Part shown: in pieces, positions 1,124-27,550 of the stretch
Layout: the number at the start of each line of letters is the position of its first letter
Position numbering within the stretch: the first letter of the stretch is position 1
Virus record (IMG/VR): IMGVR_UViG_3300021957_000210
Span: 1 to 29,076 of that record
Strand: one strand, 5' to 3'
From: a virus
Length of the DNA: 29,076 nucleotides
Notes under the pieces: generated by a model
Databases searched by the model: none
The model's input: only the letters and a program-made list of their open reading frames with translations
Told to the model about the DNA's origin: nothing
Translations under genes and position numbers: made by a program

Positions 1124-1140
1124 TATATAACGTATTTAAT
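1124..1140 (-). promoter_or_regulatory. Late-operon motif, copy A
   Basis: The minus strand reads ATTAAATACGTTATATA, identical over 17 bases to the copy before the terminase genes. It lies in the short gap between the tape measure stop and the protease ATG and ends three bases before that ATG. If it is a -10-type promoter the transcript would be leaderless or nearly so. Confidence 0.6.
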
Positions 1141-1154
1141 TTTTAAATTTGCAT

Positions 1155-2900
1155 TTATCCACCAATAGAAGCATCATTAATAATATTTCTATCTAACTCT
1201 TGTGCAGTAGTAACCTCTCCAGATACAACATACGCTTGTATTGGTTGTTGTGATTGACCACCTATTGCATCTGCTAATTGATTTGTACCACTTGCACCTA
1301 CTATATTAAAAGCTGGTGGTAATGATGCTGGTGTTGGAGAAGATATACTTGGTGTTGGTACATCTGAACTTACTTTTGCTTTTGTTTTTGATACTGCTTT
1401 TTTAACAGAATTTATAATTCCTATTCCTTGTGCTATTGCACCAGCTATTGTAACAATATTTAAAGGGAAACCAATTTTAGAACTTTCTGCTACATTTTGA
1501 GCAGTTGCAACACCAGTTTCAGCTACTGCATTAGTTGCTTTAAATGTAATTCTTTTTAAATCCATTATCGTTTCTTGTAATGCTAATCCTTGTTTTACAA
1601 TAAGTAGTGCCTTACCTACTCCAGATTCTGCATCTGCAAATTGAGATATAGCATCAACAACCATTGCTTTATCTTTTATCTTTTGTTTCTCTAAATCACG
1701 TTCATCATCATATTGTTTTTGCAATCTATTCCACTCATCATCATTAATCTTTTTTAACCTTGCTTCTTCTTTAAGTCTTGTTTCCTCATCTTCCTCGTCA
1801 AACTCTAATTGTTGTTCTGCTAAAGCATCTCTTTTAGCTAATATTAATTGTTTTGTAACATCTGAATCTTCTCCGTAATATTTTTTAGCTAATTCTATTT
1901 GCTCATCATAATCCTCTGCAATTAGTCTTAACTTCTCTGCACGTTCCTCTGCTTCTGTATCTATTAATCCTTTTCTAATCCTCTCTATTGCAGCAGCTTT
2001 TCTTCTTTCCTCCTCTATCTCATCATTGTTGTTTTCTTCCCTTTGCTTCTTCTTTTCACTTTCATCTTGTAAAATAAAACCATCTCTCTGATTTTTTAGT
2101 CTTGCTAATTGCTTTTCCGTTTCCTCAATCGTTTTATCTGCTTCCTCTGTTACTGCTTCTGGGTCAAATATTAAACCAGCAACACCATCAATATAACCTT
2201 CAGCTAAATTAGTTGCTTCCTCTATTACACCAATCTGTGCTAAACCAGCAGTTAAAGCATCTACTGCACCTAATAGTATCGTTATAGGTAAACTTAAAAA
2301 AGCAATAATACCACTTGCTATTTTCTTATTACGTTCAGCAGCCTCAACTTGTGATTTTTTGGTTTGTTTTTGTTGTTCTAATAAAAGTTCAGTTGATGCT
2401 ATTATTTCATTTGTTTGTTGTCTTTTTAGATCTCTTATTTCCTTTTCACTCTTACCTTGTAGCTTCAATGTATTTTCCATTGAGCCAATAATATCTAATT
2501 GTTTTTGTTGTGTTGTAAGTGTATCTTGTGTGTTTAATAACAAATCCTCTTGCTCGTTACTAACTCCATCAATAAGACTTGATATCTCATCCCAATACTC
2601 TACAACTAAAGCTAATGCCACAACTAATGCACCAATACCAGTTGACACCAAAGCACTCTTCATTGCCTTACCACTTAATTTAGCAGCCTTACCTACATCA
2701 ATTAATTTTGTAGCTAATCCTCCACTATATCTGTCAAGTTCTCTTATAATAGGTTTTGCAACTGCTAAATCTGATGATATTGCTTGACCAGATTTTTTAG
2801 CACTCTTGCCGACTTCCTTAACCTTTTCGTTTAATTCATCAACCTCTTTTTGTGCTTGTTTTGTATTTGCATTTAATTCTGCTTCAATTCTTATCGCCAT
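1155..2900 (-). CDS. Tail tape measure protein (581 aa)
   Basis: This long helical protein sets tail length and is expelled during DNA delivery. The N-terminal 60 residues and residues about 240-410 are charged and coiled-coil-like. Hydrophobic stretches lie near residues 82-105, 192-226 and 475-495, and the tail is Ser/Pro-rich with an ending (VVSGEVTTAQELDRN) common in Bacteroidetes-phage tape measures. At 581 residues it would suggest a rather short siphovirus tail. The start overlaps a 46-codon gene by 10 bases. It lies after the tail-tip genes in transcription order and before the protease, the reverse of the common order. I see no lysozyme or peptidase domain. Confidence 0.8.
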   Translation of the reverse strand: MAIRIEAELNANTKQAQKEVDELNEKVKEVGKSAKKSGQAISSDLAVAKPIIRELDRYSGGLATKLIDVGKAAKLSGKAMKSALVSTGIGALVVALALVVEYWDEISSLIDGVSNEQEDLLLNTQDTLTTQQKQLDIIGSMENTLKLQGKSEKEIRDLKRQQTNEIIASTELLLEQQKQTKKSQVEAAERNKKIASGIIAFLSLPITILLGAVDALTAGLAQIGVIEEATNLAEGYIDGVAGLIFDPEAVTEEADKTIEETEKQLARLKNQRDGFILQDESEKKKQREENNNDEIEEERRKAAAIERIRKGLIDTEAEERAEKLRLIAEDYDEQIELAKKYYGEDSDVTKQLILAKRDALAEQQLEFDEEDEETRLKEEARLKKINDDEWNRLQKQYDDERDLEKQKIKDKAMVVDAISQFADAESGVGKALLIVKQGLALQETIMDLKRITFKATNAVAETGVATAQNVAESSKIGFPLNIVTIAGAIAQGIGIINSVKKAVSKTKAKVSSDVPTPSISSPTPASLPPAFNIVGASGTNQLADAIGGQSQQPIQAYVVSGEVTTAQELDRNIINDASIGG

Positions 2901-3031
2901 CTGATATTTTGTTTTAATAATTTATAACCATTTTTAATTGATAATGGCAATGCGTTTTTACCTTGTGCAATTCTTATATTCTCTGTTTCTCCATTTGCAA
3001 GTTGCAATAAGTCAATAATATTCTTTATCAT
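2891..3031 (-). CDS. Small hypothetical protein in tail operon (46 aa)
   Basis: An ATG at 3031 overlaps the stop of the 704-residue protein as ATGA, and the 46-codon frame ends 10 bases inside the start of the tape measure gene. This tight coupling on both sides is the main evidence that it is real. The product (MIKNIIDLLQLANGE...) is basic and probably helical, with no membrane segment or known motif. Given its place it may be a small tail assembly factor, but that is only inference. Confidence 0.65.
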   Translation of the reverse strand: MIKNIIDLLQLANGETENIRIAQGKNALPLSIKNGYKLLKQNIRWR

Positions 3032-5142
3032 AGTATTGTATTTAGTAATTCAAATTCTGATTTGCCATTAGTAAGATTTGTTTTTAATGAATTAATCTTA
3101 TAACTGTTTTGACCTAATTCTATTCTGTCATTTAGTTTTAAACTACTAAATATTTTATAAGGTAAATAAGCAGTTACTTTTGTTAATCTTCTTTGACTAT
3201 TAAATACATCTTGTATATAACTTTGGTATTTAGTTTTAAATAAAGTATTATCAAATTTATTATTAGCAGTATATTCATTTACCATTCTATTGAAGTGAAT
3301 GTTATCTCTACTTACTGCAAAGTTTAAACTAACACTATTTGATGGTATAAAATAACTTGTTATTGGTACTCTACCACTTGGATTTGTATTTCTAAATGAT
3401 AAATTAGTTGCTGATGTTTGCCTTATAGGATAAAACAATAATGGACTACCAAAATAAGGTTCTTGATTATCATCTACAAAATAACCATATTGAATATCTG
3501 TTACTGCACCACCATTTTCATTTCGTAATCTTTCATACAGTAAATGTTCAAAAGGTAATTCTATTGAATATGATTCACTTGGTGCATCGTATATTTCATT
3601 GTTTAACGAATAACTTAAAGAACCCCATCCAGAGTTGTTTATTTGCTCAAATTGTTTTGCTAAAATTGTACCCAATCCTTTATAAGAAAAATTAACTTCT
3701 TTAAATGGCAATGCTACATCTACAACTGATTTAGTAGTATCTAAATATTGATCTATATTTATAACTTGTGTTGATTCAGCATAATAATCATCTAATGTTT
3801 TAACAACAATAATTCCATTATCTACATAAGCAGTAAGGTTAAACATCTGAAACAAACCAGTTAAAAAATCTATTATAGACATTTTAGGTATTTGCTCAAC
3901 TATATTAAATTCTAAATCGGGAGTTGTTTGCCAAGTTGCTGCATTACTAATTTCTTGATTACCAATTAAAGTATTACTACCCTCTTGTTCCTCTATATCT
4001 AATCTCAATAAAATATTACCAGCAGCAAAAGAAATTACACTTGCTGAACCAATACTAATAACGTAAGTACCAGCTTGAGTATTAGTTTGATCAGTAAAAT
4101 CTTGGAATGTTGAGAAAGGTTGATTACCAGTAAGATTATCATATTGCCATATATCTCCAGTTCCTTGCCTTGTTATTCTTACACTATATTCTATTAAAGG
4201 TTCTACTGGTGTTAATTGTAATTTAGTTGTCCAGCTTAAATATTCTTCTGCAACTATTATTATTATACCATTTTCTGAAATTGCTGGGTATGTGTTTATA
4301 TTGCCTCCATAAACAATATCATTTAAATCTGTTACTTGCGACATAACAAAACCTCCAATAGATGGAGTTTCAACACCACCTTTTTTTCTATGTAACCATA
4401 AAAACAAATTGTTAAATTGGTCATTAGTAGCATCATTAAAAAAATCATCAGAAAAAGATATATCAGAAGCATATCCATTTGCTACTGTATATTCTGATTC
4501 TATTGCCTCAATTATTGCTTGTACTCTTATAGCGTATTTAAACTGATTCCAATTTATACCATTATCTTCATATCTAAAGTTACTATTATAAAAAACATTA
4601 GTATAATCTGCTGCTCCAATCGTATCATTATAAAACATTCTATCAGAATGTGTAATTAAAGGCACTAATATATTATTAGATGTTCCAGTAGCATAATTCT
4701 CTATACCATCTTTAATTTTTTGATAGGTGTAAAGCTGATTGTATTGTGCTAAATCTGATAATGTACTTAATTGATTATCTCCTAAAATATCTTTTAAATC
4801 TACTGTATTGCCAAAGAAAGTAATTTTGTAAGTATGTGCTAAATTGTTTTTTAAATCAACTCCATCAAGTCTTATTTTACCAATCTTAAATGGTAAGTCA
4901 TTAAGTTCTAAAGTAGCATCTTGTTTTCTTCTTGCATCAAACCCATTACTAATATGAAAATTGTAATAGTGCTTAAATATCTTGTTATTTATTTTAGATG
5001 CTGGTACTGAAAATGTCTGTGTAAATTCTGTAAATATTTTTTTTATATCCTTTACATTTTGAATTGTCTGCGTAAGAGAAACAGTTTCATCTTTAAATAG
5101 ATCTAATCTTTCAGAGCCAATGTATAATACTAATTTTTGCAT
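3028..5142 (-). CDS. Putative tail-tip / baseplate protein (704 aa)
   Basis: This large structural protein has an N-terminus (QKLVLYIGSERLDLF, then FTQTFSVPAS near residue 45) that recurs in tail-tip proteins of Bacteroidetes siphophages. It is mostly beta-rich with many aromatic and Asn residues, and has no membrane segments or enzyme motif. The gene lies between another tail protein, whose stop is directly adjacent, and a small ORF plus tape measure, so a role at the tail end in adsorption or as a hub is likely. The specific role (Tal-like or hub-like) cannot be read from sequence alone. Confidence 0.55.
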   Translation of the reverse strand: MQKLVLYIGSERLDLFKDETVSLTQTIQNVKDIKKIFTEFTQTFSVPASKINNKIFKHYYNFHISNGFDARRKQDATLELNDLPFKIGKIRLDGVDLKNNLAHTYKITFFGNTVDLKDILGDNQLSTLSDLAQYNQLYTYQKIKDGIENYATGTSNNILVPLITHSDRMFYNDTIGAADYTNVFYNSNFRYEDNGINWNQFKYAIRVQAIIEAIESEYTVANGYASDISFSDDFFNDATNDQFNNLFLWLHRKKGGVETPSIGGFVMSQVTDLNDIVYGGNINTYPAISENGIIIIVAEEYLSWTTKLQLTPVEPLIEYSVRITRQGTGDIWQYDNLTGNQPFSTFQDFTDQTNTQAGTYVISIGSASVISFAAGNILLRLDIEEQEGSNTLIGNQEISNAATWQTTPDLEFNIVEQIPKMSIIDFLTGLFQMFNLTAYVDNGIIVVKTLDDYYAESTQVINIDQYLDTTKSVVDVALPFKEVNFSYKGLGTILAKQFEQINNSGWGSLSYSLNNEIYDAPSESYSIELPFEHLLYERLRNENGGAVTDIQYGYFVDDNQEPYFGSPLLFYPIRQTSATNLSFRNTNPSGRVPITSYFIPSNSVSLNFAVSRDNIHFNRMVNEYTANNKFDNTLFKTKYQSYIQDVFNSQRRLTKVTAYLPYKIFSSLKLNDRIELGQNSYKINSLKTNLTNGKSEFELLNTIL

Positions 5143-6174: not shown

Positions 6175-6178
6175 ATTT

Positions 6179-7185: not shown

Positions 7186-7921
7186 TTAAATTTCTTTTTA
7201 ATTTGTTTTGCTTCTAATTCGTTTTTCTCTTTAACATATTCCAAAGTATATAAACATTGATGTATATTTAATTTTGTGATATCTTCAAGTCTTCTAATAT
7301 CTGATTGAGCGAGTACAGAGAAAATGCTTTGAAACCATCCATACTTTCTGTTAAAGTTTGATCCAGCATCAAGGCTTCTATCTCCTCCTCCTCCAAATAA
7401 TCCGTCATAGTTTTTGACAAGTCCAGACCTAAATTCCAAAAAAAAAATATAGATGATAATACTGCATCCATTGGCATATCTAATAAATCATCTTCCTTTC
7501 CAATCTCATATTCTGATATAGTATATTTACCTTTTAGCTTTGCTATTATTGGTCTATATAAAACACTCATTGCCTTTTCCATATTCTCCCAATCTCCAAT
7601 GTAAGTATCTAAGTCTACATACTCGCCTAAAGTAAGTTCATCAAGTTGTGGATGAAATCCATATTCTTTATTGTTTATTTTAAATCTTGTTACTAAAGCT
7701 GGTTTATTATTAAACAATTTATTGATTGTGTTTGATATCATTTCTGAATCCTTAACCTTTAGAAGCATTACATCACTTGGTTTTATTTTACAAAATATTT
7801 CAATCAGTTTAACACTTAAAAACTTCTCATCTTTTATTGTAGCTTGTATGTTTAAAAATGTTTTATACTGTCTTAGAGTTATTTCGTTTAAAGTTGATGG
7901 TATGTTAATGTTTAGTTTCAT
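7182..7921 (-). CDS. Tail assembly chaperone, long product made by -1 frameshift (GT analogue, 246 aa)
   Basis: If ribosomes slip back one base on the run of ten T at 7447-7438, translation passes from Phe161 of the 217-residue protein into an overlapping 85-codon frame ending at 7182. The second frame has no ATG of its own (its first listed codon is TTG at 7439, inside the run), which argues that it is expressed only by slippage. The added tail contains a Gly-rich turn (LFGGGGDRSL), then a helical segment (QSDIRRLEDITKLNIHQC) and a charged helix ending in Lys, like the C-terminal part of GT-type chaperones that bind tail tube and tape measure. The stop overlaps the next gene's ATG. Confidence 0.75.
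7268..7921 (-). CDS. Tail assembly chaperone, short product (G analogue, 217 aa)
   Basis: The zero-frame product starts at the ATG three bases beyond late motif B. It opens with beta-like KLNINIPSTLNEITLRQYK, has a compact middle (DELTLGEYVDLDTYIG, residues 94-109), and ends in an acidic helical tail (YLEEEEIEALMLDQ). This is the usual form of the short tail chaperone that coats the tape measure before tube assembly. Residues 159-162 are FFFW, encoded by the ten-T run where the frame can change. It precedes the completion and tail-tip genes, but the tape measure comes four genes later, not immediately as in lambda. Confidence 0.7.
   Translation of the reverse strand: MKLNINIPSTLNEITLRQYKTFLNIQATIKDEKFLSVKLIEIFCKIKPSDVMLLKVKDSEMISNTINKLFNNKPALVTRFKINNKEYGFHPQLDELTLGEYVDLDTYIGDWENMEKAMSVLYRPIIAKLKGKYTISEYEIGKEDDLLDMPMDAVLSSIFFFWNLGLDLSKTMTDYLEEEEIEALMLDQTLTESMDGFKAFSLYSLNQILEDLKISQN
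7438..7447 (-). promoter_or_regulatory. Slippery run of ten T for -1 ribosomal frameshift
   Basis: On the minus strand the zero-frame codons read ATA TTT TTT TTT TGG. A slip of one base back puts TTG GAA TTT AGG next and opens the 85-codon downstream frame. The heptamer T TTT TTT is a classic slippery sequence. Whether a stimulatory structure follows was not determined. Transcript slippage on the homopolymer is an alternative route to the same product. Confidence 0.75.
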
Positions 7922-7924
7922 ATC

Positions 7925-7941
7925 TATATAACGTTTTTAAT
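7925..7941 (-). promoter_or_regulatory. Late-operon motif, copy B
   Basis: The minus strand reads ATTAAAAACGTTATATA, one base different from copies A and C. It ends three bases before the tail chaperone ATG at 7921 and follows a strong terminator at 7970-7998, so it is well placed to start the tail operon. Confidence 0.6.
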
Positions 7942-7969
7942 TTGGTTTTTTATAGTACATAAAGATAAT

Positions 7970-7998
7970 AAAAAAAGGCATACATTTCTGCATACCTT
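7970..7998 (-). terminator. Intrinsic terminator with GAAA tetraloop
   Basis: A 10-bp stem (AAGGTATGCA pairing with TGTATGCCTT, two G-U pairs) closes a GAAA tetraloop and is followed by seven T on the minus strand. It lies after the small zinc-ribbon gene and just before late motif B, separating the two units. Confidence 0.85.
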
Positions 7999-8023
7999 AA
8001 TTCATCCTTAACACTAACTTAAA

Positions 8024-8149
8024 TTATCTCATACTGCTCTCAAAACATTTGCTGCAACAGTATTGTTTATCTTCTTCCATATCTGCACCACATTCGTAAC
8101 ATTCATATTCTGATTGCTCGTGTGGATTTAAAAAATCATCCCAACTCAT
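8024..8149 (-). CDS. Small zinc-ribbon protein (41 aa)
   Basis: The 41-codon frame encodes an acidic peptide with two cysteine pairs, CYEC (residues 17-20) and CCSKC (31-35), about 11 residues apart, as in a single zinc ribbon. Its ATG overlaps the previous gene's stop as ATGA, and a strong terminator follows its own stop. Such mini-proteins often bind nucleic acid or a host protein, and an acidic one is more likely to target a protein. No specific function is recognised. It is expressed from an early-type promoter although it sits between packaging and tail genes. Confidence 0.7.
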   Translation of the reverse strand: MSWDDFLNPHEQSEYECYECGADMEEDKQYCCSKCFESSMR

Positions 8150-8280
8150 ATCTTTACAATTTTAATATCTCCGTTAACGTAATGCTCTGCTTTTATTCCA
8201 GTCTTTAATTTAACAACCTTGTAAGGCTTTATATTGTGACTGATTAATCTTTGTTCGTAAAATAATTTTAATGCTCTCAT
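8146..8280 (-). CDS. Small basic hypothetical protein (44 aa)
   Basis: A short basic peptide (MRALKLFYEQRLISHN...) with alternating Lys and hydrophobic residues suggesting beta-strands, and no membrane segment. It starts with ATG at 8280 after the early leader AAAACAGAAACTATG and has a promoter candidate 22 bases upstream. The stop overlaps the next ATG (ATGA), coupling it to the zinc-ribbon gene. The function is unknown. Promoter, leader and coupling support that it is expressed. Confidence 0.65.
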   Translation of the reverse strand: MRALKLFYEQRLISHNIKPYKVVKLKTGIKAEHYVNGDIKIVKI

Positions 8281-8302
8281 AGTTTCTGTTTTAAATTGAA
8301 CT

Positions 8303-8334
8303 GCAATATATATATTAATTACCTTATAAACAAA
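8303..8334 (-). promoter_or_regulatory. Early-type promoter, copy 1
   Basis: On the minus strand TTTG (8334-8331) is followed after 20 bases by TATATTGC (8310-8303), close to the Bacteroidetes sigma-A pattern TTTG-N-TAnnTTTG. The upstream flank (about 8325-8345) matches the flank of the promoter at 13852-13882 in 26 of 29 positions. It drives the small operon 8280-8024. Confidence 0.6.
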
Positions 8335-8348
8335 ACTTTTAATAACTT

Positions 8349-9557
8349 TTATGAAATATAATAATTACCTCTGTTTGGATTTTGTAGCTGATACGATACT
8401 GCATAACGGATTGCATCAATTATATGATTCCAATTATCTTGTGGTGTTTTTGATTTCTTTTCTAACCAACTATAATTATTTAGTTCTTTAATCAAGTTGA
8501 TACTATTTTCTTCTACTATTAAATCATAGTCTTGTAGTAATGCTATTCCATAAGTAATAGATCCTTGACCTTTGATTGCCTTTACAATATTACAACCCTT
8601 TGCTTTTAATTCATATAGTAATCTTGGTTCAGCACTATCTCCTACTATTAAATCTGTTCCAGCGTGTTTTAAGTTCAGTTCAGATATTTGTGATGTGGTA
8701 AGACCTTTAAGATAAAAACATTCCTTTAGATAGATTATTTTATTATTTACATCTATGTTAGTTTCTACTAATGTATTCTCATCTGATGCAAATCCATAAT
8801 CTTGTCCATAGACTGAAACACCTACTCTTTTAAATTGTCCTACTTTCCAATTTGAGAATATAACACCTTCTGCTTTTTGTAACCAACCACCCAGCATTTG
8901 GTGCTTATACTTTTCTGGTCTACGTCTTTTAATGTTCTCTATCTGCTCTAAATAACTTTTTGATAGATTATCTATGTTATCTAAATAAGTGGTGTGTATG
9001 TACGTTGTATTGTCTTTGGTTACGTTGCTACCATCCATTACTCCCTTGTCCTCAAAGAATCTTGTATATATCCAATGTTCTTTTGTAACTGGGTTTAAAA
9101 TAAGTATTATTCTATTCTGTTTTTTAAGATTTCTAACTGATAAATCTATCTTGTCAAATATGTTTTCATTTGTGAGTTCTTCTGCTTCATCCATTACCCA
9201 AGTTGTAACGTTTGCTAAAGATTTCAAATTTGCAGATTGGTCGCCCGATGAGGTTCTAATTCCTTTAAAGATTATCTTGCTTCCCGATAGCTTATTTATA
9301 ATTTCATCTTTTGTTATATGAAAATGGTCTTGTATGTTTAAGGTTTCTATCTTGTCTAAAAACTCTGGTATAATAGAAATGTAAGCAGATGATAAAGTAA
9401 GCCTTGTAAATAATATTGTATGCCCAGCTTCAAAAGTAAGCATCATCAATAATGTATTTATCGAATATGATTTACTTGAACCTCTACCTCCAGTTACTAT
9501 AAAATACCTTGAATCGCTTTTTTGTAATGGTTTAAATTTACTATTAAGTTCTATCAT
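8349..9557 (-). CDS. terL: Terminase large subunit, PBSX type (402 aa)
   Basis: This is the ATP-driven DNA-packaging motor and nuclease. Residues 20-30 hold the Walker A motif VTGGRGSSKS, and TTWVMDEAEEL (118-128) is Walker B with Asp123 and catalytic Glu124. The C-terminal half has nuclease-fold features (GQDYGFASDENTLVE, LIVGDSAEPRL and DNWNHIIDAIRYAV) whose aspartates would hold metal ions. Length is normal for the PBSX-type family. It overlaps the end of the methyltransferase gene by 14 bases and belongs to an operon led by the small terminase. The portal gene does not follow it, which is unusual. Confidence 0.95.
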   Translation of the reverse strand: MIELNSKFKPLQKSDSRYFIVTGGRGSSKSYSINTLLMMLTFEAGHTILFTRLTLSSAYISIIPEFLDKIETLNIQDHFHITKDEIINKLSGSKIIFKGIRTSSGDQSANLKSLANVTTWVMDEAEELTNENIFDKIDLSVRNLKKQNRIILILNPVTKEHWIYTRFFEDKGVMDGSNVTKDNTTYIHTTYLDNIDNLSKSYLEQIENIKRRRPEKYKHQMLGGWLQKAEGVIFSNWKVGQFKRVGVSVYGQDYGFASDENTLVETNIDVNNKIIYLKECFYLKGLTTSQISELNLKHAGTDLIVGDSAEPRLLYELKAKGCNIVKAIKGQGSITYGIALLQDYDLIVEENSINLIKELNNYSWLEKKSKTPQDNWNHIIDAIRYAVSYQLQNPNRGNYYIS

Positions 9558-10197
9558 TTGCTTTTACAATATCCTCACATAGTTGTTGTGGTATTTTAGA
9601 TCTATTATAATTTCCTTTTAATCCTTGTGTTCCAGTTCTACTCCCTCTTGGTGCTATTTCGTGATGACAGTATTTATTTCCATTAAAACATTTTTCTCTT
9701 GGTTTCCATCCGTTAGTATTAAATAAAGGATTCCAAATATTATTACTCCAAATGTCAGTAGGCTTTGCTCTTGTATCTCCATACTTACAATACCATACAG
9801 TTGTTCTTGGTAAACCTTTAACAATATTTAACTTTCTTAATTTACCTCTTGGATTCTCCATAAACCAATTTAAATTAGGATTTAAAAGATTAAAGTAATT
9901 AATAATTTTTAAAGTTGATTTTACATATTCAACTCCTTTTAAAGCATTATCTGATTTTGGAGTATTATTTTTATTCCAATGTTTACCAATAGATGCAACA
10001 GAGAAGTAAGTACAAGGTGGAGATGCCCAAATGAAATCTGGAATAAAAGGAACTACACTTACATCAAATTTATTTATATCTACAACATAATTAATATTAT
10101 CAAATGGATTTATGTCAGATGAAAAAACATTATATCCTAAATCATCACATACATTACCAATCGATCTACTACCAGCAAAAAGTTCTAATACTTTCAA
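9544..10197 (-). CDS. DNA (cytosine-5) methyltransferase-like protein (217 aa)
   Basis: The SAM-binding motif I is VLELFAGSRSIG (residues 3-14), motif IV is SPPCTYFS with the catalytic Cys62, and motif VI is ENP (113-115). These identify the C5 methyltransferase fold. At 217 residues it is short, with a reduced target-recognition region. It may methylate phage DNA to evade restriction or to mark it for packaging. The gene is embedded between the small and large terminase genes with overlaps at both ends (ATGA at 10197-10194 and 14 bases with terL), so it is co-translated with them. Target sequence cannot be predicted. Confidence 0.8.
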   Translation of the reverse strand: MKVLELFAGSRSIGNVCDDLGYNVFSSDINPFDNINYVVDINKFDVSVVPFIPDFIWASPPCTYFSVASIGKHWNKNNTPKSDNALKGVEYVKSTLKIINYFNLLNPNLNWFMENPRGKLRKLNIVKGLPRTTVWYCKYGDTRAKPTDIWSNNIWNPLFNTNGWKPREKCFNGNKYCHHEIAPRGSRTGTQGLKGNYNRSKIPQQLCEDIVKANDRT

Positions 10198-10463
10198 TCT
10201 TTAAATTTAATTATATCTTTAAAGTTAATATTGAATCCATCAGATGAGGTTATGTCTACTGATTCTTTTGGCTTACCATATCTATAACCAAAATATAAAC
10301 TCATTGCTCTTGCATCTCCTTTAAATATTTGTTTGCCAAGTGTTTTAATTACCTCATCATTATCTATTAAGTTATCTAACTTTTCTATTAGCTTTAACTC
10401 ATCTGCTTTCTTTGGTCTACCAGCACCCTCTCTTGCACCTCCGTTATTTTTTCTTTTATCCAT
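10194..10463 (-). CDS. terS: Terminase small subunit candidate (89 aa)
   Basis: The N-terminus GGAREGAGRPKKADE (residues 8-22) is a basic Gly/Arg segment common to small phage DNA-binding proteins next to terminases. A helical part follows, then GDARAMSLYFGYRYGKP (residues 50-66), a block shared by small-terminase-like proteins. It is the first gene of the packaging operon, 29 bases from late motif C, and its stop overlaps the methyltransferase start. It would recognise the packaging site and recruit TerL. Identification rests on motif and position. Confidence 0.7.
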   Translation of the reverse strand: MDKRKNNGGAREGAGRPKKADELKLIEKLDNLIDNDEVIKTLGKQIFKGDARAMSLYFGYRYGKPKESVDITSSDGFNINFKDIIKFKD

Positions 10464-10491
10464 TTGAAATATTTTTGTTTAATCAATTACA

Positions 10492-10508
10492 TATATAACG
10501 TATTTAAT
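10492..10508 (-). promoter_or_regulatory. Late-operon motif, copy C
   Basis: The minus strand reads ATTAAATACGTTATATA, identical to copy A. It overlaps the last codons of the 38-residue gene and lies 29 bases before the terS ATG, the only copy with a real 5' leader to its gene. Confidence 0.6.
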
Positions 10509-10620
10509 CTATTTTTTTTCCTAACTTTAATTTAATTAGTTCTTTAAACAATTCTTTTCTTCTTTTACCTTTAGGCAAACTATCAATTAGCTGCTGCATC
10601 TTTTGTATTATCTTTTTCAT
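10504..10620 (-). CDS. Small basic hypothetical protein (38 aa)
   Basis: A 38-codon frame begins with ATG at 10620, one base beyond the stop of the 47-residue gene. The product is Lys-rich and helical (KKIIQKMQQLIDSLPKGKRR) with a Pro-Lys-Gly turn in the middle, which would suit a small nucleic-acid-binding helix pair. It ends the early block, and late motif C begins inside its last codons. No function is recognised. Tight spacing supports it being a gene. Confidence 0.5.
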   Translation of the reverse strand: MKKIIQKMQQLIDSLPKGKRRKELFKELIKLKLGKKID

Positions 10621-10767: not shown

Positions 10768-11331
10768 CTATCTTGTTCCTCTTACATCTGCAACATTTGG
10801 AGAACCAACTATTACTTCTGCTTGTTCATTTCTTGCTTTCCATTTAAAACTCTTTAAGACCAAAGATGCTCTTTCATCGTATGATTCTTTTTGCTTTCTT
10901 GTAAGGCTTCTGTATTCTCTTTCGTTATTAGTTAACCCATCATCAGAAGATAGTAAGTATTTTAGTGATTCATTATGTGATACTAATTTATTATACTTTT
11001 CTTTTAATTCTGTGTATTGTTTAACTTTTTGGTATGGTGCATTTATTTGTTGTCCTAATATTTCAATTCTATAAATGTCGTGTAATCTTCTTAAATCTTT
11101 ATTTACCATTAGTTCTTCAAACATTTTTTTTGAATGTAAAACAGTTGCGTGATCTCTATTAACCATTTCTCCTATTTTCTTTAAAGACCAATGCGTTGTT
11201 TCAGTTGCTAATTTAAAATATAGTGTTCTAAACTTAACTATTTCTGCATCTCTTAATTTAACAGATATATCGTACCCAGCACATTTATCTACGTACTCTT
11301 TTATTCTTTGTAGTTCTATTTCGTGTTTCAT
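10768..11331 (-). CDS. DnaA-like DNA-binding protein (187 aa)
   Basis: Residues about 25-72 resemble domain IV of DnaA, the helix-turn-helix part that binds DnaA boxes. 'WSLKKIGEMVNRDHATVLHSKK' (split here as WSLKKIGEMV, 48-57, and NRDHATVLHSKK, 58-69) is the DnaA signature. The AAA+ ATPase domain of full DnaA is absent. The remainder is a charged helical tail of unknown role. It may bind the phage origin, recruit host replication proteins, or act as a regulator that competes with host DnaA. It is preceded one base away by the HNH gene's end region and followed by two tiny genes. Confidence 0.75.
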   Translation of the reverse strand: MKHEIELQRIKEYVDKCAGYDISVKLRDAEIVKFRTLYFKLATETTHWSLKKIGEMVNRDHATVLHSKKMFEELMVNKDLRRLHDIYRIEILGQQINAPYQKVKQYTELKEKYNKLVSHNESLKYLLSSDDGLTNNEREYRSLTRKQKESYDERASLVLKSFKWKARNEQAEVIVGSPNVADVRGTR

Positions 11332-13851: not shown

Positions 13852-13882
13852 GCAATCTACAACATATGGACTTATAAACAAA
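13852..13882 (-). promoter_or_regulatory. Early-type promoter, copy 2
   Basis: On the minus strand TTTG (13882-13879) precedes TAGATTGC (13859-13852) by 19 bases, then the AACAGAAACAAATG leader. Its flank at about 13872-13900 matches the flank of the 8303-8334 promoter in 26 of 29 positions, so the two are copies of one regulatory sequence. The upstream part overlaps the end of the nuclease-like gene. Confidence 0.6.
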
Positions 13883-13886
13883 ATAT

Positions 13887-14306
13887 TTAATAACCTTTAT
13901 TTAAATTAATTCTTAAAGAATCCTTTTCATCAATCAAATAAACATCTTTCAGCAATTTTTTTTTAGTCCACATTGTAGTATCGGGACAATATTTTTTTAC
14001 TGCTGGTGGCATCTCTAAAGTATTTAAGTAAAATAAAAAGTTACCCTTTGCATCATTAACAAGATAGATCTTAATAACATCTTTATCTAAAGACATAAGA
14101 GCATCGTATTTATCTTTCTCCAGCATCTTGGTTTCATAGTGCTTCTTTCTGAATTTCATTTCAATTACACAATCATAACCTTTTTGTGTTTTACCTTTTG
14201 CATCCCACCTTTCAGAACCTTCTCCAGTCCATTCTAAATCCCATCCCTCAAAGTTTAAAAGCAGCACCATTGCTTTTTCTAATTGATGTACTTTATTTAT
14301 ACCCAT
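13887..14306 (-). CDS. PD-(D/E)XK-like putative nuclease (139 aa)
   Basis: The sequence RWDAKGKTQKGYDCVIEMKF (residues 33-52) gives Asp35 or Asp45, Glu49 and Lys51 in the D-x-E-x-K arrangement of the PD-(D/E)XK nuclease fold, with a preceding helix (KVHQLEKAMVLLLNF) and following helix (TKMLEKDKYDALMSL) and strand (VIKIYLVND). Its pattern matches the protein at 14905-15330 closely enough to be a paralogue or shared-fold relative. A resolvase or recombination nuclease role is plausible. The ATG overlaps the end of the upstream 70-residue gene. Activity is untested inference. Confidence 0.55.
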   Translation of the reverse strand: MGINKVHQLEKAMVLLLNFEGWDLEWTGEGSERWDAKGKTQKGYDCVIEMKFRKKHYETKMLEKDKYDALMSLDKDVIKIYLVNDAKGNFLFYLNTLEMPPAVKKYCPDTTMWTKKKLLKDVYLIDEKDSLRINLNKGY

Positions 14307-14904: not shown

Positions 14905-15330
14905 TTATTTTAATTTATGTTCCCACATTATTGATAATTGTTTTGGGAGGTTTCTATGTAGTTTCATTATTTTAGGTTTATTATCAGACCAGTAATGTGT
15001 ATGCTCCATTAATTTATTATGTTCCGGTAACTTAATTATTTTATCTATTACTTGAGATATATTAAATACTGATACTCCATTTTCATCTACCACTATATAC
15101 ACAAATGTTTTATTCTTTAATTGTGATTGCTGGTAATTATTTGAAAGTTTCATTGTTTCAATCATTTTTGTGTTATAGGCTTTAAACCTATGTTTAACCT
15201 CAACAATAAAATCATCTCCCTCAAAATCGTAGGTGCTATATTCGTCATCAACTAATTGTATTTGTCCCTTGCATTTAGCATTCCACCAATCTCTTATTTC
15301 TTTTTCCTTTTGTTTTATTTGTGCTTTCAT
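14905..15330 (-). CDS. PD-(D/E)XK-like putative nuclease, second copy (141 aa)
   Basis: The block YDFEGDDFIVEVKHRFKAY (residues 34-52) offers Asp35 or Asp39/40, Glu44 and Lys46 of a PD-(D/E)XK active site. It continues as YNTKMIETMKL and a later strand (FVYIVVDENGVSVFNI). The order E-x-K, Arg, Tyr, TKM, then a strand of the form (I/V)-Y-(L/I)-V is the same as in the protein at 13887-14306. The N-terminus is a charged helix (KQKEKEIRDWWNAKCKG). Its ATG overlaps the stop of the sigma-like gene. A role in recombination or resolution is inferred. Confidence 0.5.
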   Translation of the reverse strand: MKAQIKQKEKEIRDWWNAKCKGQIQLVDDEYSTYDFEGDDFIVEVKHRFKAYNTKMIETMKLSNNYQQSQLKNKTFVYIVVDENGVSVFNISQVIDKIIKLPEHNKLMEHTHYWSDNKPKIMKLHRNLPKQLSIMWEHKLK

Positions 15331-15836
15331 AATAAAACTATTATTATAATTATTATTAAAAGTTTCTTTAATTTTCTTTTTACTTTGTTATAAGTGTTGT
15401 AAAGTGAGTAATAAGGTATGCCAGATTTTCTTGATAGTTCTGCTATTTTTTCCCCTCCATTAATTATTTCAAACACCTTGCGATTGTACCAATACATTTC
15501 AGATAATGAATCTGTTATTTTTTCATATTCAGAATCGTAATTAATATCCATCTGCGTATTAAAATCATTTATATTATCTTCTATATTTACAATGGTTATG
15601 TTTTTTCCTTTACGTTTTAAATCATAAAACAAAGATTTTAAGGTTTTAAATATATAGTAGTAATTTATTTCTTTACCATACATTATATCTAATCCTTTCT
15701 CCAGCTTTAATTGTATTTTAATATACATTTCTTGAACAATATCTTCAGCTATTTCTTTATCACATCCAAATGATATAACTATTTTGATCCATTCCTTGTG
15801 CTTTTTAGCAACTAAAACCATTGTTTCTTGTACCAT
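15327..15836 (-). CDS. Sigma-70-family (ECF-like) RNA polymerase sigma factor (169 aa)
   Basis: An N-terminal region (CDKEIAEDIVQEMYIKIQLK, residues 25-44) matches sigma region 2, which binds the RNA polymerase core and opens the -10 element. A C-terminal helix-turn-helix (KIAELSRKSGIPYYSLYNTYNKVKRKLKK, split at residues 130-158) fits region 4. A linker of about 40 acidic residues joins them. It would redirect host polymerase to phage promoters, and the late motif copies A-D are the obvious candidates. It ends in an odd hydrophobic tail (LLIIIIIIVLL) encoded by a simple A/T run. The gene lies in the replication operon between the ATPase and a nuclease-like gene. Confidence 0.7.
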   Translation of the reverse strand: MVQETMVLVAKKHKEWIKIVISFGCDKEIAEDIVQEMYIKIQLKLEKGLDIMYGKEINYYYIFKTLKSLFYDLKRKGKNITIVNIEDNINDFNTQMDINYDSEYEKITDSLSEMYWYNRKVFEIINGGEKIAELSRKSGIPYYSLYNTYNKVKRKLKKLLIIIIIIVLL

Positions 15837-17972: not shown

Positions 17973-18002
17973 CAAATATAAACAAAAAAGTTAATAAACA
18001 AA
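17973..18002 (-). promoter_or_regulatory. Bacteroidetes-type promoter for early operon
   Basis: On the minus strand TTTG (18002-17999) lies 18 bases before TATATTTG (17980-17973), a full match to the Bacteroidetes TTTG / TAnnTTTG pattern. It begins in the T-run of the preceding terminator and the first ATG is at 17955, giving a very short leader. Confidence 0.5.
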
Positions 18003-19254: not shown

Positions 19255-19255
19255 A

Positions 19256-19922: not shown

Positions 19923-19941
19923 AATATTTTATTTTGATTAA

Positions 19942-19954: not shown

Positions 19955-19964
19955 AAATTAAATA

Positions 19965-20318: not shown

Positions 20319-20319
20319 A

Positions 20320-23300: not shown

Positions 23301-24552
23301 TACGTGGTAAGTTAGTATCATCTGTAATTTCTAATACTGATATGTTTGTTATAGAGCCATCAAAACCATTATTTGCATATATCCAACATTTATTTGTATC
23401 ATCTGCATAATATGTTTGACTAAAAGTACCATTTGTAGTAATAAAATTACCTCCAGCACCATCATAAGGATAAGTCACTTTACCCGTTGTCATATTAGAA
23501 ACAGTTATTCCAACTTTATAAGTTTTACCATTCTCAAATAAATTAGTAGATGTTCTTATAAAACCATTAAGACTTCCATCACTTATAGCTACGCCATTAC
23601 CAATACTCCAATTTGAATCTAAAACCCAATTTTGCCCGACTTCCTTTACCGAGATGTTTGTTACAGAGCCTATGAAAGCATTACTATAAAATGCAATGCG
23701 TGAATCTAAAATTGAAGATAAATATATTGTTTTAGTTCCGTTACTTGTAACACCTACTCCACTTCCTCCAACAAATCGAAATGATAAAGTTCCCGAAACA
23801 TAGTCAGAAACATCAAAAACCACCTTGTAATATGTATTAGTAGATAAACCACTAACAGTTTGTATTATATCGCCATCTGTTCCATCACTTATAGCCTTAT
23901 CCTCTCCAATACTCCAACCCGTTCCTAAAGTCCAATCTTGTCCAACCTCTTTAACGCTTACGTTGTCTATTGACATTGAGGCATTATTAGTAAATAAAAC
24001 TCCTATATATGTATTACCTCCCGTAAATTTGATATAATCAGTATATGTGCCATTTGCAGTCCTATTGGCACCACTATTATTAAGCCCATCATTCAAACCA
24101 CTTCTTACAATTCCACTTATATAATCACTTACTGTAAAGGTTATTTTATAAAATTTGCCTACGACTAAAGATGTGGATTGATATAAATATTCAGTAGATG
24201 CGTTTGTGGCAATAGCTTGACCATTTGTTATTTCAATACTTCCAGTTTTTACCCAATCACTATCTGTTGCAAAATCTCCGTTTGTAACTAACTCGCTACT
24301 CTCTTGACTAAAATTACCATTAGTAACCTCCTCTGAACCTATCTCTGAAAAATCTCCGTTCTGTACTAAATTACTTGATAGTATTTGTACATCCTCAACA
24401 AGACCTTGAGCATTAACTCTTGTAGCACTTGAATTTCTTGTAAAGTCAAAATCCCCATAAGGTGCTTCACTTGGCTTTATAGCTAAAACCTTTCCATCAT
24501 CGTAAGCAGTTGGTGTAAGGATTATCGAAGCCTTTTCTAATAAGTTTGCCAT
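20320..24552 (-). CDS. Modular receptor-binding fibre/spike protein with duplicated architecture (1410 aa)
   Basis: The largest gene. It consists of two unequal copies of one plan. Copy one begins at FTRNSSATRVNAQGL (residues 37-51), has NGDF repeats (65-93) and four jelly-roll, CBM-like modules each ending near DNVSVKE or TNISVKE (about 196-202, 299-304, 402-408, 547-553). It then has FEPQSTNLIPYS (570-581), a carbohydrate-type domain, TSYIPTEGT (737-745), a LamG-like domain (about 765-890) and KEALTDEELRSLT. Copy two repeats this with one CBM-like module (FTRNSEATFVNAQGL near 925). It would bind host surface glycans. No enzyme motif was seen. Confidence 0.7.
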   Translation of the reverse strand: MANLLEKASIILTPTAYDDGKVLAIKPSEAPYGDFDFTRNSSATRVNAQGLVEDVQILSSNLVQNGDFSEIGSEEVTNGNFSQESSELVTNGDFATDSDWVKTGSIEITNGQAIATNASTEYLYQSTSLVVGKFYKITFTVSDYISGIVRSGLNDGLNNSGANRTANGTYTDYIKFTGGNTYIGVLFTNNASMSIDNVSVKEVGQDWTLGTGWSIGEDKAISDGTDGDIIQTVSGLSTNTYYKVVFDVSDYVSGTLSFRFVGGSGVGVTSNGTKTIYLSSILDSRIAFYSNAFIGSVTNISVKEVGQNWVLDSNWSIGNGVAISDGSLNGFIRTSTNLFENGKTYKVGITVSNMTTGKVTYPYDGAGGNFITTNGTFSQTYYADDTNKCWIYANNGFDGSITNISVLEITDDTNLPRINYSGFTYQDSLGSELVTNGSFDTDSANWFLTGTSFWVNSSIEVPTGALSQVFTLANNKTYKITFDVIQGSGIDGGVYVNTNYNTSDFANNVGATTIGVGGTYTYTFTMNGQGNGITLTRRVNNQDIRIDNVSVKEYLGQEVVPDSGCGAWLFEPQSTNLIPYSEDFSNASWSKASVSVVSNNYISPDGTINADKIIDDTTNNIHRIQDTISTLNSGNHTYSIFLKKGTLTTAYFQVFNSGTASAANVDLENGTITSAGVGFNHKIEDYGNDWYRCSISFVSTNTATTVYLYLKQATAYVGTGEYLYAWGAQLEQQSYSTSYIPTEGTIKTRNQDLCTNGGDASLINSSEGVLYFEGSTLVNNGNRFISLRESATAQDRMFLRFDTNGTITFRYYVGGSISINIVDSTINALDKNKIACKWELNNFSLWLNGIKVGEDLSGNVVTPNTYDKLQFNEYTNINNFFGNTKALGVWKEALTDEELRSLTYPTPTAPTFDLDFNTIATDFIFTRNSEATFVNAQGLIQSTNEFGEEEITNGDFSTDGIPSTTSWSLGWYSQTSNVLISGGKLTLTNSASQSSALAYATDGVSSLNVVTVNKTYKLQYRVIENNGVTSFKYYSAGGSFIVAPTDLGVTHTIYIKNIANQIFLFQNATTNSSISIDNVSVKEYITETNTPRLDYSTGAEAFLLEPQRTNLLQYSNDYADSYWLKSASGSGVAPIVTSNYAISPDGTQNADRIQFDASNSGSNSDSSRFRTTLTLVDGLDYTTSFYAKSKGVTDQKIGIIFDNSQREVFTVTNEWQRFTKTITQTNTSSICGLDLRGAVASTSDILVYGFQIEQGSYATSYIPTDGTTVTRNQELSSKNNVNELFDGNVGSIYLAYDGISTNGTTLNNMTPFRLYGQPNNKIRPYYSPDADFLGTSVSFENGGKIAWSCNGTTILTYINGVLKDTHTITNNFTTLSNFALSTGFMTHRITDIKVYPKALTDVELQDLTTI

Positions 24553-24553
24553 A

Positions 24554-24751
24554 TTATTGTATATTTTCTATTGCAGTTAATGTTGCAGTTGTACAAATTT
24601 CATTCTCGAAATAATCTGCTCTTGCTTGTAAATCTAATATTAAAGCTGGTATATCACTACACCCAGCATATTGCTGATAAACAATTCCCCATCCTACATC
24701 ATTACAAGCACCTTTTCCCCACCAAGACTTTAAGTATATTTCGTTTGCCAT
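24554..24751 (-). CDS. Small hypothetical structural-region protein (65 aa)
   Basis: The product (MANEIYLKSWWGKGACNDVG) has a Gly/Trp-rich start with three Cys (residues 16, 31 and 53) and a helical end (LILDLQARADYFENEICT). It starts by sharing one base with the stop of the 35-codon gene (TAATG) and stops one base before the fibre gene ATG. Phage proteins of this type occur near fibre genes in Bacteroidetes phages, but I recognise no function. Confidence 0.6.
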   Translation of the reverse strand: MANEIYLKSWWGKGACNDVGWGIVYQQYAGCSDIPALILDLQARADYFENEICTTATLTAIENIQ

Positions 24752-24858
24752 TATTTTATTTTATTTTTTACCTTTTCTAAAAAGAGTTTTAACTTTTCAA
24801 TATTCTTTTCCTTCGGTTTTGTAACCCTCTTAACTGGTTTATCAATCAAAGTACCCAT
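24751..24858 (-). CDS. Small Lys-rich protein (35 aa)
   Basis: A 35-codon frame starts at ATG 24858 within the last codons of the adaptor gene and overlaps the next ATG as TAATG. The product is almost half Lys with hydrophobic helix positions (MGTLIDKPVKRVTKPKEKNI), so a basic amphipathic helix. Tight coupling at both ends is the only support. It could bind DNA or acidic capsid parts. Confidence 0.5.
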   Translation of the reverse strand: MGTLIDKPVKRVTKPKEKNIEKLKLFLEKVKNKIK

Positions 24859-25352
24859 CCATTAAAAGTTGCATCGTATGACGGATAAATATCATCATTT
24901 ATGTTGTTTGTATATTCGGGATATGTAGTTTGGTTAAAAGACATAAAATCTATAAATCGTCTTGAATACCATTCTGCATTTGTTCTTGCCTTTTCAACTA
25001 AAAAATCTATTTCGTTTTTATCTACTGATTGAGCGTTTTCTGATGTATGCTTAAATACTCCACCATTCTTAATTTGATATGCAGCAAATGGATAGTAATT
25101 AGATTGAGCATACCATATTAACATAGGTACAACAAAGTCATCTAAAATTGTTTTCCATCTTGCATTTTCTGGTAGATCTATATTTGGTATTGCAGCACTT
25201 AATCCATCATACATTTTTGTACCAAGAATCTGTTGTACATCTATCTCTTGTGCAATCTTAATGAACTGAACAAATTTATCAGTATCTACATTCCCATCAA
25301 GTATAGAGTTTCTTACTAAATCCGTTCTATTTATAAATAATACTGTTGCCAT
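24846..25352 (-). CDS. Head-tail adaptor-like protein (168 aa)
   Basis: A mainly helical protein (FVQFIKIAQEIDVQQILGTK, residues 27-46, then a Trp/Tyr-rich helix LIWYAQSNYYPFAAYQIKNG, 78-97, and a long helix FLVEKARTNAEWYSRRF). The pattern of an early 'QE..I..ILG..LY' helix followed by a long amphipathic helix is typical of adaptor proteins below the portal in Bacteroidetes phages (DUF6712-like). It follows the portal gene by six bases. Family naming is from memory and position. Confidence 0.6.
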   Translation of the reverse strand: MATVLFINRTDLVRNSILDGNVDTDKFVQFIKIAQEIDVQQILGTKMYDGLSAAIPNIDLPENARWKTILDDFVVPMLIWYAQSNYYPFAAYQIKNGGVFKHTSENAQSVDKNEIDFLVEKARTNAEWYSRRFIDFMSFNQTTYPEYTNNINDDIYPSYDATFNGWVL

Positions 25353-25358
25353 AGTTTC

Positions 25359-27167
25359 TTAGTTTGGGTATGCTCCTCTGTTCGGCATATCAATAGGTGC
25401 TTCTTTAGCATCTTGATACTGTTTACCTTTTGGTTCGTATTTGTTTGGTATTGAATCAACATCTTTACCTCTTGATATATATTTTTCAGTTTCGCTTTTC
25501 ATTCTATAAAGTTCCTCTTGCCAGTAATGTCCACAGTATATTCCTCCCTTATATTTAAATAGCGAATAGTTTCTACCTTTATGCCCAAAATCATTATTTA
25601 CACCTTGAAAGGAAGCATTATCAATATCTTCTTTTCTATACACAACACCCTTTGATGTTCTACCCATCATTGTTTTACAAAAATCTCTACTATTTGCAGA
25701 TGATTTTCTTTCTTGGTATGTGTATCTAATCTTATAAAATGATTTATCTAACTTACTTTCTCCATTTGGCTTTGATTTAATAAAATCAGCAAACTTTTGT
25801 ATTCTTGATAGTTTCTTTTTTATTTTAGAATTTACCCAATCCTCAATACTCTGATTGTCATCTGATATTTCTCTTGTATCAACCAATTCATATTCATCAG
25901 ATATTGTTTCGTATTTTAAGTTTTCTAAAATTAATGACGCCATCTCATCTGTTAAATCATTTTTATCATCCTTAGACATTTCAACACCAGTTTCCTCCTC
26001 AATAGTTTCATCATCTTGTAATTCCTTATCTACCTCTGTAAACTCTAATGGTTGTAACGTTGTAAAGTATAGATTTAAGCTAATTTCGTTGTATGCAAGT
26101 ATATGGTCAAAGCAATCTATTAAAAGTTCTTGAAATGGTCTTATAACTGTGTTATCCATTAAAAGAGATGCAGTCTTAATCTCCTCTGCATTGTTACCTA
26201 ATCCACTTCCATCTTTTATACCTAATAGCATTGGACTAACTATCCTATGTGCTACCATAATTTTAGATGTGCTTTCCTCACTTAAAAATTGGTATTGGTT
26301 ATGTGCATCTGATAATTGTACTGGTGTTATCTCTGCTTGTGATTCTTTATTGTCATTAAAAGCAAGTATGAATTTCCCAGCATTACTTGTTCCACTAAAC
26401 TTCTCTGCAATCTTATTTTCTATTAATTGTCTTTCTTGTTGGTTAGGAGTTCCATTGTTGAAGTTAATTAACATCGATGGACTTAAACCATTCATTATAT
26501 TGTTGAGGTGGTAATTAGATACCTCTTCCTCTAACTCTGCGTATTGTAAACCACCTTGATAATCAACTGGACTGTAATAATAGAAACCACTCTTATATGG
26601 TTTTATGTAATATATCTCAATCCCCTCTTTTGACATACCATAAGCTGGTATTCTTAATGGTTCATCTGTTCTTTTTATATTTGCCCAATCATTAAAATAA
26701 TAATAAGCTGGTATTTCTCCATCCTCATTACACTTTTCTGCCCTTAATGTTTCAATAGGCATATGCTCTAATTGAACTATCTTGCTTCTATCCTTAGAAT
26801 ATATAACTTGAATAGCACATTGTCCCATTAGTTTTAAATCATAACACAATCTTCTTACTACATCCTTTTTAAATAAAGAAACCATTTGAGCATACTCATT
26901 AGGTTTTCTATTTGAATCAGTAGCATTTAATCCTTTTCCATAAATAGCTTGGCTAATGCCATTAATAGCAGCGTTATTAGTAGGAGATCCATTGTATCTA
27001 TCAATTAGAAATTGAAAGTAGTTATTATCAGCACCATATTCAATCCAATCATTACCATTTACCTCTTTAATTTCGGGACTTGTGTAAGTGCTTAAATTAA
27101 CAAAACCAAATTCTGAAATTTTAGATGCCTTTGTAAATTGTCCTTTACTATTTCTTTGTCTTTTCAT
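25359..27167 (-). CDS. Portal protein with C-terminal Cys/His extension (602 aa)
   Basis: The N-terminal 420 residues have the pattern of PBSX/SPP1-like phage portals: WIEYGADNNYFQFLIDRYNG (residues 42-61), IKPYKSGFYYYSPVDYQGGL (187-206), and a helical middle with HRIVSPMLLGIKDGSGLGNN (about 304-323). An acidic linker (TIEEETGVEMSKDD) joins a C-terminal domain (about 474-560) with RDFCKTM (Cys497), VVYRKEDIDN and GGIYCGHYW (Cys545, His547), which resembles a Mu-gpF-like or head-morphogenesis domain. It is the DNA channel of the head. The extension makes it longer than common portals (400-500). It overlaps the 121-residue gene by four bases. Confidence 0.85.
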   Translation of the reverse strand: MKRQRNSKGQFTKASKISEFGFVNLSTYTSPEIKEVNGNDWIEYGADNNYFQFLIDRYNGSPTNNAAINGISQAIYGKGLNATDSNRKPNEYAQMVSLFKKDVVRRLCYDLKLMGQCAIQVIYSKDRSKIVQLEHMPIETLRAEKCNEDGEIPAYYYFNDWANIKRTDEPLRIPAYGMSKEGIEIYYIKPYKSGFYYYSPVDYQGGLQYAELEEEVSNYHLNNIMNGLSPSMLINFNNGTPNQQERQLIENKIAEKFSGTSNAGKFILAFNDNKESQAEITPVQLSDAHNQYQFLSEESTSKIMVAHRIVSPMLLGIKDGSGLGNNAEEIKTASLLMDNTVIRPFQELLIDCFDHILAYNEISLNLYFTTLQPLEFTEVDKELQDDETIEEETGVEMSKDDKNDLTDEMASLILENLKYETISDEYELVDTREISDDNQSIEDWVNSKIKKKLSRIQKFADFIKSKPNGESKLDKSFYKIRYTYQERKSSANSRDFCKTMMGRTSKGVVYRKEDIDNASFQGVNNDFGHKGRNYSLFKYKGGIYCGHYWQEELYRMKSETEKYISRGKDVDSIPNKYEPKGKQYQDAKEAPIDMPNRGAYPN

Positions 27168-27529
27168 ATTACTATATAAGTATTATCGTAACCATTGTAT
27201 GTTGTAAATTGACCATCATTTAAATTATAATAATCATTATTTGATTGGTCTATGTTTTGGTCAGTACAGAATATTCTATCTTTATAAATGCTATCCGTTT
27301 TATTTGAATCCGTATATAATTCAATATCATAAAAATGATTCTCCACTAAAACTGGTGCAAAGGTAATATTAAAATTAAGATAGTTTCTAGATGTAATTGC
27401 TGATGTTATTTGATAGTCTACTGTTACGTTTGTGCTATCATCTCTTATTGCCATAGTGAAAGTACCTAAATAACTTCGAGGTATCACAGATAGGCTTTGT
27501 GCAGTTGCAGATGTTGTAAGTATAATCAT
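27164..27529 (-). CDS. Hypothetical structural-region protein (121 aa)
   Basis: A beta-rich Thr/Asn/Tyr-rich protein with no signal cleavage site convincing enough (a hydrophobic-to-Ser N-terminus MIILTTSATAQS is not typical), no Cys pair and no domain I recognise. Strand-like blocks include YLGTFTMAIRD, VTVDYQITSAI and LNFNITFAPVLV. It is the first gene of the portal operon, four bases from late motif D, and overlaps the portal ATG as ATGA. Neck or tail-completion roles are possible. Confidence 0.6.
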   Translation of the reverse strand: MIILTTSATAQSLSVIPRSYLGTFTMAIRDDSTNVTVDYQITSAITSRNYLNFNITFAPVLVENHFYDIELYTDSNKTDSIYKDRIFCTDQNIDQSNNDYYNLNDGQFTTYNGYDNTYIVI

Positions 27530-27533
27530 TATA

Positions 27534-27550
27534 TATATAACGAAATAAAA
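27534..27550 (-). promoter_or_regulatory. Late-operon motif, copy D (core only)
   Basis: The minus strand reads TTTTATTTCGTTATATA, keeping the 9-base core CGTTATATA of copies A-C but not the upstream ATTAAA. It ends four bases before the ATG at 27529 and follows a terminator, so it is placed to start the portal-to-lysis operon. Confidence 0.5.

Follow-up and report, generated by a model that had tools for sequence, protein, structure and literature searches.

The window, by which we mean the whole of the 29,076-base IMG/VR virus record IMGVR_UViG_3300021957_000210, carries phage genes that we identified on the minus strand. Four late units begin within it: the prohead protease (Peptidase_S78_2; 530-1120; PF14550, E 5.4e-13); a tail unit whose first gene lies at 7268-7921; a terminase unit that starts with the small-subunit gene terS (10194-10463) and includes the large-subunit gene (8349-9557); and a portal-tail fibre-lysis unit in which a small gene (27164-27529) precedes the portal gene (25359-27167; phrog_33693, E 1e-100). 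As originally predicted, the 17-base sequence ATTAAATACGTTATATA occurs on the minus strand as exact copies at 1124-1140 and 10492-10508, and with one change at 7925-7941. A further copy had been assigned to 27534-27550; its 9-base core, CGTTATATA, is present, but the core itself occupies 27534-27542, and the longer interval is the 17-base frame around it. An AAA triplet lies exactly 15 bp upstream of CGTTATATA in all four copies, which none of 100 shuffles equalled. The resulting putative late promoters, all on the minus strand and with 15 bp between their two boxes, span 1124-1152 for the protease (GCAAA at 1148-1152, CGTTATATA at 1124-1132), 7925-7953 for the tail unit (ATAAA at 7949-7953, CGTTATATA at 7925-7933), 10492-10520 for the terminase unit (GAAAA at 10516-10520, CGTTATATA at 10492-10500) and 27534-27562 for the portal-tail fibre-lysis unit (ACAAA at 27558-27562, CGTTATATA at 27534-27542). 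Minus-strand terminator-like hairpins lie just upstream of the tail-unit promoter (7975-7998) and just upstream of the portal-unit promoter, where the hairpin ends the capsid unit (27582-27605).

Allowing up to three mismatches, we found five matches to ATTAAATACGTTATATA in the window where 1.06 were expected, and none of 100 shuffles reached five. By contrast, the core CGTTATATA alone, with one mismatch allowed, was not enriched (eight found, 11.9 expected). The worry that the motif might be frequent by chance therefore holds for the core and not for the 17-base sequence, and the significance of the core comes from its position, from the second box and from its conservation in relatives. Searching for AAA-N15-CGTTATATA with no more than one mismatch gave exactly four matches in the window, all of them at late units, against an expectation of 0.57.

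We next compared 150 related IMG/VR viral loci, fetched with the sigma-like protein and the terminase large subunit as queries. Of 161 late-unit orthologs, 157 had exact ACGTTATATA in the 60 nt upstream, against none of 1,560 other gene starts. By gene, it preceded 69 of 70 tail orthologs, 81 of 83 terS orthologs, 5 of 5 protease orthologs and 2 of 3 orthologs of the portal-unit gene; no exact ACGTTATATA was observed upstream of genes inside late operons in the same scan. Over 1.33 Mb of relatives, there were 184 copies of ACGTTATATA on the gene strand and none on the opposite strand, while the reversed control gave 1 and 9. No exact copy precedes early genes, in the window or in relatives, in agreement with the original prediction. 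The protease promoter is present in nearly all complete relatives, and the portal-unit promoter occurred, with a varying spacer, in each of the 21 genomes that we compared. A near-complete relative typically carries five copies on the gene strand, of which the additional fifth one stands before the scaffold gene. The proposed rule of one copy per late unit thus stands for the four units of the window, but protease, scaffold and capsid, which had been taken as one unit, are not one: the protease has its own copy, and scaffold and capsid share the separate fifth copy in relatives. A divergent group of relatives has fewer exact copies and keeps CGTTA. Rare opposite-strand copies of CGTTATATA (minus strand, at 10254 in L006, 4446 in L023 and 4003 in L067) lie away from late unit starts and are as expected by chance.

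The window is a linear contig, not a circular genome, and lacks the fifth copy. Relatives reveal a truncated accessory gene at one contig end and a capsid gene without its N-terminus at the other. We considered a circular genome, in which the capsid frame would cross the contig ends, and rejected it because relatives show that the scaffold gene and the capsid N-terminus are missing; on this comparison, the in-frame junction is a coincidence. The ends (1-120 and 28950-29076), which lack at least 1 kb with accessory genes, scaffold and capsid N-terminus, are thus a trap for false circularity. The fifth copy is expected to lie in the missing stretch, and the closest relative, G017, carries it. 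Small neighbouring genes between protease and scaffold (133-540 and 1-119, minus strand) begin alike, with MKSNIQKVYSKLP and MKSRLEKVYSKMP, and the copy number and length of such genes differ among relatives.

The original prediction described the motif as a -10-type element only, of the kind found in T4 late promoters. This description did not survive comparison of 104 distinct promoters from 29 genomes, which we aligned on CGTTA; the AAA positions played no part in their selection. In these 29 genomes it takes a two-part form, [AG][CT]AAA-N15-CGTTATATA, with almost fixed spacing. At each of the positions -18 to -16, 99-100% of the 104 promoters have A, and [AG][CT] are the commonest letters just before them. 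CGTTA counts as the invariant heart of the -10-like box partly because it anchored the alignments. Scanning spacings of 10-20 bp on the gene strand gave 109 matches at 15 bp and 2-10 at every other spacing; the opposite strand gave 4 matches. Identity was 0.40-0.65 in the spacer and 0.97-1.00 in the AAA box, and since the spacers vary while the AAA box is constant, shared ancestry alone is insufficient as an explanation. CGTTA was absent within the tested distance at 9 of 122 unit starts, mostly of terminase or ParB-type units, and a wider scan found a bipartite copy further upstream at some of these nine. In G003, G007, G021 and similar genomes, the terminase unit begins with a ParB-like/DNA methylase fusion gene in place of terS; the late promoter has passed to this gene, and the terminase large subunit is also a different one (~30% identity).

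The architecture differs from the single promoter element read by T4 gp55 or phiEco32 gp36. The nearly fixed spacing of the two boxes is instead expected for a sigma factor with regions 2 and 4, and the late promoters share with the ECF type both the two boxes at a set distance and a -10 box of CGT type. A -35 box with AAC is typical of many, though not all, ECF promoters. The invariant part of the upstream box here is AAA rather than AAC, so we limit the claim to "ECF-like" and name no ECF group.

The early operon differs from the late units in its promoter. It holds the RecA-like, SSB and sigma genes, has no late motif, and is preceded by the host-type -7 box TATATTTG (17973-17980, minus strand), which fits the host consensus TAnnTTTG and is kept in many relatives. 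No Bacteroidetes -33/-7 pair with a -33 TTG precedes the tail, protease or terS units or the unit starting at 27529, just as the original prediction stated, and the TTTG/TAnnTTTG pair of the Bacteroidota sigma A was not found at the late motifs. Scans for sigma-70 style sequences (TTGACA/TATAAT) gave no excess over shuffles. The virus is a tailed phage of Bacteroidota, and its host is probably a marine flavobacterium. Two similar non-coding stretches of the form TTTTGTTTATAAG...TA(T/G)ATTGCAG...AAACAGAAAC (~8303-8345 and 13852-13895, minus strand) precede small genes at 8280 and 13824, one of them within the late region; their TAnnTTGC box is similar to the SM5 class in F. psychrophilum (PMC9723704).

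The sigma-like protein had been put forward as the possible reader of the motif. Its gene (15327-15836, minus strand) encodes what appears to be a two-domain, ECF-like sigma factor, in which sigma2 and sigma4 domains are joined by a linker, and comparative data strongly favour it as the reader of the late promoters; its role as a late sigma factor is our proposal. NCBIfam ECF models matched the window protein with E-values of 1e-4 to 3e-3, and members of its family with values down to 4.5e-6, all below curated cut-offs. All 20 homologues matched an ECF model, with the window protein scoring far under the curated cut-offs. TIGR02937 spans residues 16-160 of the window protein (E 0.003; best family member 8.6e-6), likewise below its curated cut-off, and Pfam Sigma70_r2 matched 15 of the 20 homologues weakly. 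About 50 columns are invariant among the twenty.

The AlphaFold model (mean pLDDT 72.5, pTM 0.47) shows two domains, both helical, with residues 83-98 between them forming a linker of low confidence, so that the predicted protein consists only of the two domains and linker that define an ECF sigma factor. With this model as the Foldseek query, the first 25 matches were nearly all ECF sigma factors (best 1.9e-4). Residues 98-165 (VIA) matched sigmaE region 4 on -35 DNA (2h27; Z 10.1, rmsd 1.5, 68 residues aligned) and residues 1-75 (VIA) matched the N-terminal part of SigR (1h3l; Z 9.5, rmsd 2.3, 71 aligned). A structural Z of ~10 can arise by chance among helical folds, and we therefore place weight on both domains matching in order and on the HMM evidence; the whole-chain TM-score is only ~0.35 because the domain orientation differs. 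A PDB sequence search with the sigma profile gave no meaningful match, and tblastn with the window sigma at E 1e-3 gave no match in 50,697 phage records. A hydrophobic C-terminal tail rich in Ile and Leu, LLIIIIIIVLL (15327-15365, minus strand), is shared by the window sigma and three homologues and is absent from the remaining aligned homologues.

We observed a second version of the same pairing in the cultured Nonlabens phages P12024L (JQ823123) and P12024S (JQ823122). Both encode a protein annotated as Sigma-70 region 2 that is 26% identical to the window sigma and whose gene sits just before the terminase genes, and both have distant homologues of the terminase, portal and protease. The promoter class is the same, but in place of 15 bp and CGTTATATA, the variant ACAAA-N14-CGTTAATA stands before seven late genes. 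Of the gene starts in the two phages, 7 of 46 and 7 of 45 have CGTTA in the preceding 22 nt, where ~1.2 would be expected, and each of the seven copies has ACAA(A) ~14 bp above CGTTA and its C 11-12 nt before the ATG. In P12024L, the seven genes start at 179, 3031, 5412, 22090, 24771, 26011 and 27612. Among the seven are the protease gene, the gene that precedes the portal gene, a terS-adjacent gene and tail genes, some of them homologues of late-unit genes of the window. Relatives with sigma factors of 47-67% identity retain the variant. Promoter and sigma factor vary together between the groups (spacing 15 or 14; CGTTATATA or CGTTAATATA), a co-occurrence that tracks shared ancestry as well as function. 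Riemerella phage CRP34 and Olleya phage Harreka_1, which have related terminases and no annotated sigma factor, contain no such motif copies. A search of phage records for the P12024L/S sigma matched only P12024L/S, and a scan of a genome collection gave one distant sigma homologue, in a Bacteroidia MAG, without the motif near ORF starts. We found no promoter study of P12024L/S in the open-access literature searched.

Taken together, position, architecture and conservation make it almost certain, from comparative genomics, that the motif copies are late promoters, and we consider it highly probable that the phage-encoded ECF-like sigma factor reads them. Early genes, the sigma gene included, would be transcribed from the host-type -7 promoter TATATTTG; the phage sigma would then join the host core RNA polymerase and direct it to five late units (terminase, tail, protease, scaffold-capsid and portal-to-lysis), at promoters composed of a -35-like [AG][CT]AAA, a 15-bp spacer and a -10-like CGTTATATA.

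The same boxes could in principle be read by an ECF-type sigma factor of the host, with the phage protein serving another role. F. psychrophilum has seven ECF sigma factors, and a CGT box lies in the -10 region of one motif class, SM6 (PMC9723704); the CGT box of the phage motif fits that ECF-type -10 region. SM6 as described there is a host regulon, however, whereas the window has phage promoters, and 119 Bacteroidia genomes show no enrichment of the bipartite motif (31 matches in all, below the reversed control). The sigma gene is retained in all 17 of 17 near-complete relatives, and in the Nonlabens phages a different phage sigma goes with a different promoter variant. We therefore regard reading by a host ECF factor as unlikely.

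It is very unlikely that the motif is instead an operator at which a phage activator works with host sigma A. The protein encoded at 10768-11331, close to terS, has a DnaA helix-turn-helix (PF08299, E 3.3e-10) and was the candidate activator. We rejected it for its patchy presence: it was detected in 8 of 17 near-complete relatives, whereas all 17 have the motif. Moreover, no sigma A -33/-7 pair stands beside the motif, and the near-fixed 15-bp spacing and the closeness to start codons suit core promoter boxes better.

That closeness is marked. The motif ends 3 nt before the start codons at 1120 and 7921 and 4 nt before that at 27529, which bears out the 3-4 bases originally noted for three copies; the start codon of terS (10463) is 28 nt away. 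Among relatives, the C of CGTTA lies 12 nt from the ATG in 49 cases, 13 in 21, 14-16 in 28 and 10 in two, one of which (G034) is a mis-set start with a true distance of 13. At terS, the C lies 32-38 nt before the ATG. A motif that so often adjoins the ATG might be a translation-initiation element of late mRNAs and no promoter, but in relatives the terS motif ends at least 24 nt before the ATG, a conserved second box (AAA) lies ~32 nt before most ATGs, and genes inside late operons lack the motif, all of which makes such an element highly improbable. That late mRNAs start well upstream at undetected promoters, with the motif a processing or other late regulatory site, is scarcely credible: all genes lie on one strand and read-through into late units is possible, but two copies are immediately preceded by the terminator-like hairpins and the two-box form has sigma-like spacing.

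If the motif is a promoter read by the phage sigma, its geometry bears on translation. In phiEco32-like phages, transcripts start 6-9 bp downstream of the element (PMC8948821). By comparison, starts ~5-8 nt past CGTTA would place the 5' ends of most late mRNAs 0 to ~6 bases before the AUG, and since the start codon usually lies 10-16 nt past the C of CGTTA, most late mRNAs would begin at the AUG or a few nucleotides from it. We lean slightly towards late mRNAs that are mostly leaderless or near-leaderless. The geometry fits the earlier suggestion of leaderless transcripts for the protease, tail, portal and scaffold units and does not fit it for terS, whose predicted leader is roughly 20 nt or more. 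In F. psychrophilum, leaderless transcripts make up only 5.5% of mRNAs with mapped leaders (PMC9723704), and 87% of the leaders predicted in F. johnsoniae are longer than 10 nt (PMC6847099). The sigma switch may also move most virion mRNAs to leaderless translation, as a combined transcription-translation switch, an idea to which we give slightly less than even chances; if true, the switch is conserved across many marine phage contigs and two cultured phages.

These results describe, in a whole group of marine Bacteroidota phages, a late regulon that is clean and predictable, in which two-box promoters go with an ECF-like sigma factor, so that late operons can be called from sequence. Bacteroidota have few genetic tools, and the phage sigma with its promoter suggests itself as a small orthogonal pair for them. 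The phylum also lacks Shine-Dalgarno signals, and the possibility of leaderless late mRNAs there can be tested. P12024L and P12024S, with their Nonlabens host, permit direct tests.

Phage-encoded late sigma factors are already known, among them T4 gp55, phiEco32 gp36 and 7-11 gp47, and come mostly from phages that infect Proteobacteria and Firmicutes. T4 gp55 promoters have TATAAATA, a T/A-rich -10-type element before late genes, and T4 late transcription uses this one element with a sliding clamp and gp33. T4 gp55 is a phage late sigma factor, as the window protein would be; the window system adds a -35-like box. Like the window, phiEco32 has a small phage sigma, gp36, and a -10-like element, tAATGTAtA, with starts 6-8 bp downstream at its middle and late promoters (PMC8948821, PMC4281155). 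In contrast to the two boxes and region-4 fold of the window system, gp36 has a single-element promoter and no region-4 homology. By analogy, the closest known system in logic is that of Salmonella phage 7-11, in which SaPh711_gp47 is, like the window protein, a phage sigma with region 4 and bipartite late promoters, early genes use the host sigma, and the closest homologues of the sigma include sigma-24 of the flavobacterium Winogradskyella (PMC8948821). Its boxes and spacing (GTAAtg-16-aCTA) and its enterobacterial host differ from ours (PMC8948821), and it was established experimentally, whereas the window system is a prediction. Our search, confined to the open-access literature, found no earlier description of these late promoters. 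What is new relative to the known systems is the phage group, the promoter class, the pairing with an ECF-like sigma factor and the start-codon geometry.
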